Source: Candidatus Flavonifractor merdavium (GTDB taxonomy: Bacteria > Bacillota > Clostridia > Oscillospirales > Oscillospiraceae). Taken from it: a stretch of DNA of 64,000 nucleotides. Location of the stretch: assembly GCA_019119335.1 (NCBI GenBank), contig DWXF01000030.1, positions 16,148 to 80,147 of the forward strand, read 5' to 3'. The translations under genes were made by a program, and so were the position numbers. The notes beneath the pieces were generated by a model that saw only the letters and a program-made list of their open reading frames with translations, made no database searches and was not told the DNA's origin. Below are positions 14,486 to 18,855 of this stretch, one piece after another; position 1 is the first letter of the stretch; each line of letters starts with the position of its first letter.

Positions 14486-14515
14486 TTATTCCTCGTCCAG
14501 CTTGAGGACGGCCAC
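14486..14515 (-). other. Second copy of LepA C-terminal codons (VAVLKLDEE*) downstream of lepA
   Basis: Minus strand GTGGCCGTCCTCAAGCTGGACGAGGAATAA; lepA itself ends ATGGCTGTGCTTAAATTGGACGAAGAGTAA. Confidence 0.8.
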
Positions 14516-14599
14516 CGCAGCGTTAAGCAAACGTGCCGGTGGCACGTTTGTAGCGTAGGCCGCAGCGGCTATGCCGCGAGGAGGGAACTTTGCGGATGC

Positions 14600-17320: not shown

Positions 17321-18304
17321 ATGGCTATTCACATGTTCCAGCAGCTCATTGACTCCCTGAAAAAGAGTCCCAAGAAGATTGTCTTTACCGAGGGCACCGA
17401 CCCCCGGATCCTGGAAGCCAGCGCCCGCCTGCTGGCCGGTACCTGGCTGGCCCCCATCCTGGTGGGCAAGGAGGATGAGGTGAAGGCCGCCGCGGAGGAG
17501 GCCGGCTTCAACATCCGGGGCGCCGAGATCATGGATCCCGAAACCTATCCCGATATGGACAACATGGTGCAGGCCATGGTGGAGCTGCGCCGCGGCAAGA
17601 TGACCGCCGACGAGTGCCGGGCTGCCCTGAAGCACGGCAACTACTTCGGCACCATGCTGGTGAAGATGGGCGTGGCCGACTGCCTGCTGGGCGGCGCCAC
17701 CTACTCCACCGCCGACACCGTCCGTCCCGCCCTGCAGCTCATCAAGACCAAGCCGGGCAACAAGATCGTGTCCTCCTGCTTCATTATGGTCCGTGAGGGC
17801 GTGGGCGACAACACCGTGCTGGCCATGGGCGACTGCGCCATCAACATCGACCCCACCGAGGACGAGCTGGTAGAGATCGGCCTGGAGTGCGCCAAGTGCG
17901 CCCGGACCTTCGGCATCGACCCCAAGGTGGCCTATCTGAGCTACTCCACCCACGGCTCCGGCAAGGGCGACACCGTGGACAAGATGCGCAACGCCTGCGC
18001 CAAGGCCAAGGCCGCCGCTCCCGAGCTGGCCATCGACGGCGAGATGCAGTTTGACGCCGCCGTCTCCCCCTCCGTGGGCCAGCTGAAGTTCCCCGGCTCC
18101 CCGGTGGCGGGCTACGCCAACACCTTTATTTTCCCCAACATCAACGCCGGCAACATCGGCTACAAGATTGCCCAGCGTCTGGGCAACTTCAGCGCCTACG
18201 GCCCCATCCTGCTGGGCCTGAACGCCCCCATCAACGACCTGTCCCGGGGCTGCAACGCCCAGGAGGTCTACTCCATGGCCATCATCACCGCGGCCCTGGC
18301 CTAA
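17321..18304 (+). CDS. pta: Phosphate acetyltransferase
   Basis: KIVFTEGTDPRILEASARLL; ADCLLGGATYSTADTVRPALQLI; FPNINAGNIGYKIAQRLG; YGPILLGLNAPINDLSRGC. Confidence 0.96.
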   Translation: MAIHMFQQLIDSLKKSPKKIVFTEGTDPRILEASARLLAGTWLAPILVGKEDEVKAAAEEAGFNIRGAEIMDPETYPDMDNMVQAMVELRRGKMTADECRAALKHGNYFGTMLVKMGVADCLLGGATYSTADTVRPALQLIKTKPGNKIVSSCFIMVREGVGDNTVLAMGDCAINIDPTEDELVEIGLECAKCARTFGIDPKVAYLSYSTHGSGKGDTVDKMRNACAKAKAAAPELAIDGEMQFDAAVSPSVGQLKFPGSPVAGYANTFIFPNINAGNIGYKIAQRLGNFSAYGPILLGLNAPINDLSRGCNAQEVYSMAIITAALA

Positions 18305-18319
18305 GCAATATCTCAGAAA

Positions 18320-18353
18320 CTGGAGCATCCTCCCCGGGTGCTCCAGTCTTTTT
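18320..18353 (+). terminator. Intrinsic terminator after pta
   Basis: CTGGAGCA..TGCTCCAG followed by tcttttt. Confidence 0.85.
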
Positions 18354-18517
18354 ATGGCCAGGGAGGAGACCTCCGCCCCCGCTCCAGCGGGGTCCGGCGC
18401 TATGCGCCGCCAAGCGTTTTGCGCCCTGAGGCGCAAAACCTTGATGCCGGGGCAATTCACTTGCTCCGGCAGAGTTTAATCTTTGGGGCCCCCGCAGACC
18501 GAAGGCCTGCGGGGAAC

Positions 18518-18553
18518 TGCTCCATGGCCATCATCACCGCGGCCCTGGCGTAA
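18518..18553 (+). other. Direct repeat of the pta 3' end (...SMAIITAALA*) downstream of pta
   Basis: ctccatggccatcatcaccgcggccctggcgtaa at 18520-18553 versus ctccatggccatcatcaccgcggccctggcctaa at 18271-18304: 33/34 identical. Confidence 0.95.
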
Positions 18554-18596
18554 AGCTTGGCGGTAAAAAATCACAGACTGACAACAAAACTGTTAC

Positions 18597-18631
18597 AAAA
18601 TCGGAGCGCCCCTGGCGGGCGCTCCGATTTT
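18597..18631 (+). terminator. Second intrinsic terminator after the pta tail copy
   Basis: AAAATCGGAGCGCCcctggcGGGCGCTCCGATTTT. Confidence 0.85.
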
Positions 18632-18855
18632 GTCCGCCGTCAATAAAAGAAGGACAAGATAGGGGATTTCCTCGGCGCTTTTCCCGTAAAAAAGCCAAAA
18701 TCCGTATTTTTTACATCTTACCCTTGACTTTTGCGGGGAAAGCGTGTATCATACGGTTTGTAACAATTTGTAACCATTCTTACCGAACTGTTACAAAGCA
18801 GCCTGCGGGCTGTCACCATATGATACAATTTACAGAATGGGAGGGTATCCCCCAC

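Follow-up and report, generated by a model that had tools for sequence, protein, structure and literature searches.

A family of non-coding hairpin repeats flanked by duplicated host gene ends in Flavonifractor

In the 64-kb stretch of DNA analyzed here (the window), the 3' end of the pta gene occurs twice, and the insert between the two copies belongs to a family of non-coding repeats (E) of about 120-150 bp, each with three or more hairpins. A sequence-only reading of the window, which saw the same succession of gene, hairpin insert and tail copy at a second, unrelated gene, took the arrangement to be recurrent, and it is: flanking direct repeats surround 119 of 131 E copies, and the copies occupy at least 47 sites. 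In our preferred explanation, to which we give an even chance, the insert is one copy of a family of small DNA-hairpin elements, mobile now or formerly, which would insert by a cut, fold-back copying and re-synthesis of the gene tail, all of them inferred, and whose flanking tails would later be kept alike by recombination. That the inserts form one structured family, that their left end adjoins an inverted copy of the target, and that a minority of them duplicate gene starts are aspects beyond the sequence-only reading.

The pta insert and its relatives

The two tail copies of pta (Table 1) are direct repeats, identical at 35 of 37 positions and offset by 249. As the sequence-only reading had claimed, the last 34 nt of the gene (18271-18304) recur at 18520-18553 with one wobble difference, a synonymous GCC/GCG change, and both the complete terminator and hairpins between the copies and the second terminator beyond them are present. 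With 30 nt of exact match, against 19 for the runner-up, the pta tail is the longest near-exact direct repeat of the window and is far above chance. Judged from its pta relatives, the window's genome belongs to the genus Flavonifractor. Elsewhere in the window, the palindrome TGTTTCACGTGAAACA, which we take to resemble the ParB site parS, has two exact copies (2647-2662 and 2801-2816).

Table 1. Coordinates of the features at the pta and lepA loci of the window
Feature	Position	Strand	Basis or remark
pta coding sequence, host gene of the insertion	17321..18304	+	open frame; Flavonifractor relatives up to 96% identical
left (in-frame) tail copy of pta, begins at target site S	18268..18304	+	
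left terminator hairpin and T-run downstream of pta	18319..18353	+	inverted repeat (arms 18319-18330 / 18336-18347); sequence
S', inverted copy of the target junction at pta	18354..18374	+	matches the complement of GGAGGTCTACTCCATGGCCAT with three mismatches
optional left hairpin of E at pta (CCCCGCTCCAGCGGGG)	18375..18393	+	sequence
E core at pta	18394..18514	+	matched by covariance model, 110 bits
conserved E hairpin CCAAG-CGTTTTG..CAAAAC-CTTG at pta	18410..18443	+	
E hairpin with conserved TTCAY loop at pta	18445..18471	+	
3'-terminal E hairpin at pta	18490..18514	+	pairing maintained while sequence varies; right end GGGG constant
right tail copy of pta	18517..18553	+	
right terminator hairpin downstream of pta	18595..18633	+	inverted repeat (arms 18595-18611 / 18617-18633)
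right tail copy of lepA (VAVLKLDEE-stop)	14486..14515	-	differences from lepA end all synonymous but first codon
decayed insert at lepA	14516..14599	-	degenerate S' (GCATCCGCAAAGTTCCCTC) vs lepA GAGGGCAAAAAGAAGATGC

Four further places in the genome match the pta insert, at alaS, glutamate dehydrogenase (gdh), groEL and an apparent pyruvate oxidoreductase gene (host genes named from short translations), and in all four the insert has a copy of the host gene's 3' end on either side. A covariance model of E, built on five copies that all come from the window's genome, detected 7-54 copies per genome in 20 Flavonifractor genomes and copies in just 3 of 41 genomes of other genera. Clustering by flanking genes assigned the copies to 47 sites, including pta, alaS, groEL and glutamate dehydrogenase; copies that share a site are not independent, and many of the genomes are incomplete. 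Across species, alaS was struck at two different positions (L092/L102 vs L106/L142/L163/L180/L188).

The sequence-only reading had likened the architecture at lepA to that at pta. The likeness stands for the tail, since the peptide AVLKLDEE-stop is kept in the downstream copy with 7/8 codons changed, all synonymously, and needs a qualification for the insert, to which the covariance model gave no match in the window and which, from its sequence, is best read as an old, decayed member of the family. Intact lepA insertions exist (L153 and L179), and the idea that the first lepA tail is foreign by codon use was dropped for decay of an old insertion of this type. A second E upstream of pta, found in F. 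plautii (L014:1780-1903) and at L023:1700-1822, duplicates the apparent start of lepA, on the opposite strand.

Misassembly, or tail repeats no more frequent than chance, would have refuted the sequence-only reading, and neither was found. An unbiased scan of 432 kb of the 2.76 Mb genome for close direct repeats (offset 90-600) returned six, five of them around E, and displaced controls returned none, which is far above chance. The window's genome is a draft (64 contigs, 82% complete), a point in favor of an artefact of assembly or contamination, but many assemblies made independently show the same structure, F. plautii ATCC 29863 (L014) and 99% complete genomes among them, and we regard the artefact as a negligible concern. 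In 400 kb of a relative (G017), 10 close direct repeats were found vs 0-3 in controls, with a recognized element in one of the 10. Long tandem repeats of ~210 and 242 bp without E lie in this genome at C1:190575 and 399444 (L303-L322).

An Rfam search of five loci returned nothing above the gathering score, only weak matches outside E or at chance level. No match to E was found in viral contigs (searched with the exact core pattern), phages or plasmids, and a phage or plasmid origin was rejected on this ground. Genomes of other genera carry E-like repeats, among them G042 (98% complete) with as many as 81 copies and G029 (96%) with 16; those of G042 stand in tandem arrays at ~118-bp spacing and also within larger hairpin clusters. 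The repeats of G042, and most of those of G029, have the architecture of E but neither the duplication nor S', and either the insertion process or the traces that it leaves must differ there. Individual cases of hairpin repeats outside the genus, mostly without gene-tail duplication, are L113, L276-L301 (G042) and L275-L302 (G029). Among E copies without flanking repeats, those inspected are mostly decayed insertions that lack the right tail, several of them still with S', and loss of the right tail was seen at eutC and dtd. Such copies were rejected as autonomous partners, being mostly decayed insertions with no recognized mobility gene beside those inspected.

Target site, inverted arm and hairpins

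The repeats that flank E are 26-271 nt long; they begin at S and extend beyond the end of the gene. They were accepted at a score of at least 45, where random pairings have a median of 20; the highest control score was 101, and same-gene pairs were not screened out of the controls. The right repeat begins 0-7 nt past the 3' end of E in 114/119 cases, and an open frame 240 nt or longer terminates between the left-repeat start and E in 102/119. With orientations read off by reference to pta as the known case, most sites are sense insertions at the 3' end of a gene, usually with S 35-103 nt ahead of the stop codon, whereas at a minority of sites it is the start of a gene on the opposite strand that is duplicated. 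The left boundary of E falls at several positions, while its right end is fixed. The target has a base preference, with G at -2 in 34/46 (p = 2e-9 vs phase-matched positions) and C rare at -4. Tandem units also exist. The terminator, which the sequence-only reading had included in the architecture, belongs to it at pta but is not a constant feature, being predicted in both tail copies at only 5/36 sites; the same count led us to reject the transcript 3' end as a general limit of the duplication.

Directly to the left of E, 82% of 113 loci carry S', with a complementarity to their own target scoring at least 20, vs 3% when the targets of other loci were used. S' includes ~5 nt upstream of S, and its upstream limit lies 4-7 nt before the right-repeat start in 26/31 scored sites. 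Each S' matches its own S better than the orthologous S. Selection to keep S and S' paired is not supported, as S' decays at eutC.

Pairing within E is well kept. In 93 distinct copies, 96.3% of stem cells are paired, and 433 cells are double-changed vs 116 in shuffles; double changes also occur among copies of a single site (17 pairs at pta and 6 at gdh). Of 3081 cells, a count that leaves out one position with common G-T, 31 are G-T/T-G and 22 A-C/C-A. Because selection on RNA should prefer G-U to A-C, these near-equal numbers point to DNA hairpins or to template-directed palindrome correction, and the substitution pattern would favor DNA over RNA hairpins; the G-T excess at the one position leaves an RNA role of E possible.

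The high frequency of S' suggests fold-back copying, and we propose a course of events whose order is inferred from the junctions only. A cut at S with a stagger of ~5 nt would come first. One broken end would then be extended by copying E, and fold-back copying of S would give the arrangement S'-E-S. The gene side would be rejoined by re-synthesis of the tail, through short complementarity between S' and sequence beyond the gene, which would leave the second tail. Because insertions whose duplication misses the gene boundary would break the gene and be lost, the survivors would be those at gene ends. Later, tandem expansion and contraction, together with recombination with empty alleles, would keep the tails alike and the downstream tail coding-like. 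For this explanation count the flanks of 119/131 copies, S' and its 4-7-nt offset, the base preference, the compensatory changes in the stems, and, from the section below, the empty and relic pta sites, the tandem units, the tail homogeneity and the G000/G014 pair. Against it stand the absence of an enzyme, the repeats of G042 and most of G029 without duplication or S', and the fact that E copies within one genome are not recently related. A mobilizing enzyme was not found, in that neither reverse transcriptase nor Y1 transposase genes track E among the carrier genomes, some of which are incomplete.

Two other routes to the same junctions were weighed. E could be the 3' end of an RNA element whose insertion relies on target-primed reverse transcription. 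Copying of E RNA would then be primed by a nick at S, the variable left ends would result from early stops, and the long duplication and S' from template switches. Although a constant 3' end, a variable left end, long variable duplications and inverted joins are typical of such a reaction, the stems have near equal G-T and A-C, and no reverse transcriptase match was obtained in G042, G029 or the window's genome, on which ground that enzyme was rejected as the partner of E. Loss or draft gaps remain conceivable, and we hold this route to be distinctly unlikely. Alternatively, no dedicated enzyme may be needed, if replication stalls at the hairpins of E and template switching, driven by microhomology, then places copies of E at gene ends and makes tandem duplications. 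Fold-back copies, tandem units and the lack of a partner gene beside the repeat-less copies inspected would fit, whereas the constant right end of E, the target base preference and the regular 5-nt offset suggest a specific reaction, and we consider an enzyme-free origin unlikely, though worth keeping in view.

Inheritance of the insertions and evolution of the tails

Comparison with relatives, which the sequence-only reading had proposed as a check, revealed empty pta sites in sister species. Two pta tails ~236-249 apart are present in 7/20 Flavonifractor genomes, while one tail without E is present in G002, G004, G006, G010, G011, G015, G016 and G018, most one-tail genomes sharing the window's promoter region downstream. 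At two relic sites, in G017 (L344) and G019 (L357), only S' and the first E hairpin are retained, with the right tail and the remainder of E gone; downstream of the G017 relic lies a long run of other hairpin repeats. In the pta tree, which has weak support at its inner nodes, the filled G007 stands in a clade that is empty apart from it. Mean identity of E is 0.82 at the same site in other genomes and 0.72 at other sites in the same genome. Because E resembles the same site elsewhere rather than other sites of its own genome, and in view of the empty, relic and filled states of pta, most of the insertions have been passed down by descent, alongside some gains, losses or transfers. Present activity of E is doubtful, since copies within one genome are not recently related.

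These distributions bear on the possibility that E is a module at the ends of highly expressed genes that is kept by selection for a benefit to the host, as proposed for REP/BIME (supercoiling, mRNA end, gyrase or polymerase binding). Direct repeats should readily delete E, yet different species have retained it at sites such as pta and gdh, and its stems are kept through double changes within one site. Presence is patchy, however, with losses at pta, S' decays, and palindrome correction could also keep the stems. A host benefit seems to us rather improbable as the explanation, and it is compatible with our preferred explanation of an inserting hairpin element, as the two do not exclude each other.

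The tails themselves are more alike within than between genomes at 15/16 sites (0.935 vs 0.832 at pta). Between left and right tails of 89 loci, 237 codon differences are synonymous and 48 nonsynonymous, with 3.2x as many nonsynonymous sites, and the in-frame stop is kept in 84/89 right tails; 9 loci that were <80% identical or gapped were omitted, which may favor constrained loci. When polarized, five nonsynonymous changes fall in the left and seven in the right tail. Spare right tails unexpectedly evolve like coding sequence. If a neutral right tail were simply overwritten by gene conversion, most differences should be nonsynonymous; this reading was rejected, and in-frame readthrough into the right tail was rejected because the two copies show no phase preference.

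An RNA-level step, by splicing-like removal or ribosome bypass from the left S to the right S, would express the right tail in place and account for the synonymous excess, the kept stops and the similar nonsynonymous counts on the two sides. The left tail, though, is intact and under constraint in its own right, the two copies have no frame relation, the stems are DNA-like, and right tails can be lost, as at eutC and dtd, all of which make such a step very improbable. Under the preferred explanation, right tails are coding-like because they descend from recently coding tails: we infer that exchange between filled and empty alleles, with expansion and contraction of units, keeps them so, at a rate that has to be large and is unmeasured. 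Evidence for exchange comes from the tandem units and from G000 and G014, which have E (88%) and the region past the right tail in common, yet whose pta genes are not sisters.

Relation to known repeats and mobile elements

REPs are palindromes of 20-40 bp with an unpaired GTAG or CGTC tag at one end, of which the CGTC type may lack a resident transposase; the word duplication is absent from the text of the survey concerned (PMC3733652). Like REP, BIME and REPIN sequences, E is short, non-coding and palindromic, with tens of copies per genome outside coding sequence and conserved pairing, but in place of single hairpins of 20-40 bp it has three or more over ~120 bp, without a conserved GTAG. 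Many E copies have a CGTC-like string after the left hairpin, with no tagged single hairpin or 8-9 bp stem starting A-T. RAYT (Y1 tyrosine transposase, PF01797) had no match in the window's genome, G029, G042 or several other carriers, some of them incomplete, and a Y1 transposase, the criterion for GTAG-type REPs, was rejected as a partner because genomes with many E-like repeats lack the gene. We know of no report of gene-end duplication or of a target-derived inverted arm for REPs.

In MITEs the terminal inverted repeats are fixed, and the target is duplicated over a short, constant length. E resembles them in being small, non-coding and dispersed, with direct repeats of the target on both sides, and departs from them in that its inverted arm S' is target-derived and site-specific and its duplication spans 26-271 nt. 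In LINE-like elements the 3' end is constant, the 5' end and the target duplication vary, and inverted joins occur. E shares the constant 3' end, variable left end, variable duplications and inverted joins with target-primed retroelements (LINE/SINE and group II introns); unlike in these, no reverse transcriptase tracks E and the stems are DNA-like.

Integrative islands restore the 3' end of the gene that they enter, as PAISt does at bacA (PMC4057263). Insertion of E at a gene 3' end likewise leaves the gene functional, but PAISt-type islands use an integrase and a fixed attachment sequence, whereas E occupies at least 47 sites with a duplicate taken from each host gene. Mobile genes of fungal mitochondria encode homing endonucleases and carry in a duplicate of the gene's C-terminus. 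As with these, E leaves a displaced second gene end downstream of the insert, but the tail copies at E match the host genome. To our knowledge, no bacterial mobile element has been described that leaves a spare end of the gene it enters and thereby keeps that gene whole. A search of the open-access literature gave no description of E or of such insertion, and absence there is no proof of novelty. We suggest only tentatively, and short of an even chance, that E represents a type of mobile DNA not described before in bacteria: a hairpin element without a protein of its own that, by fold-back template switching at a staggered cut, would copy the gene end and the inverted cut site, would never break its host gene, and would have both gene ends under coding selection through continuing exchange.

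The family shows a route by which repeats can harmlessly get into essential genes, in a common gut genus that has 7-54 of them per genome. The scar that it leaves, a long duplication of variable length with an inverted arm taken from the target, points to an insertion chemistry undescribed for bacterial repeats. Through the coding-like evolution of both tails, the turnover of gene ends and recombination between filled and empty sites become directly measurable.
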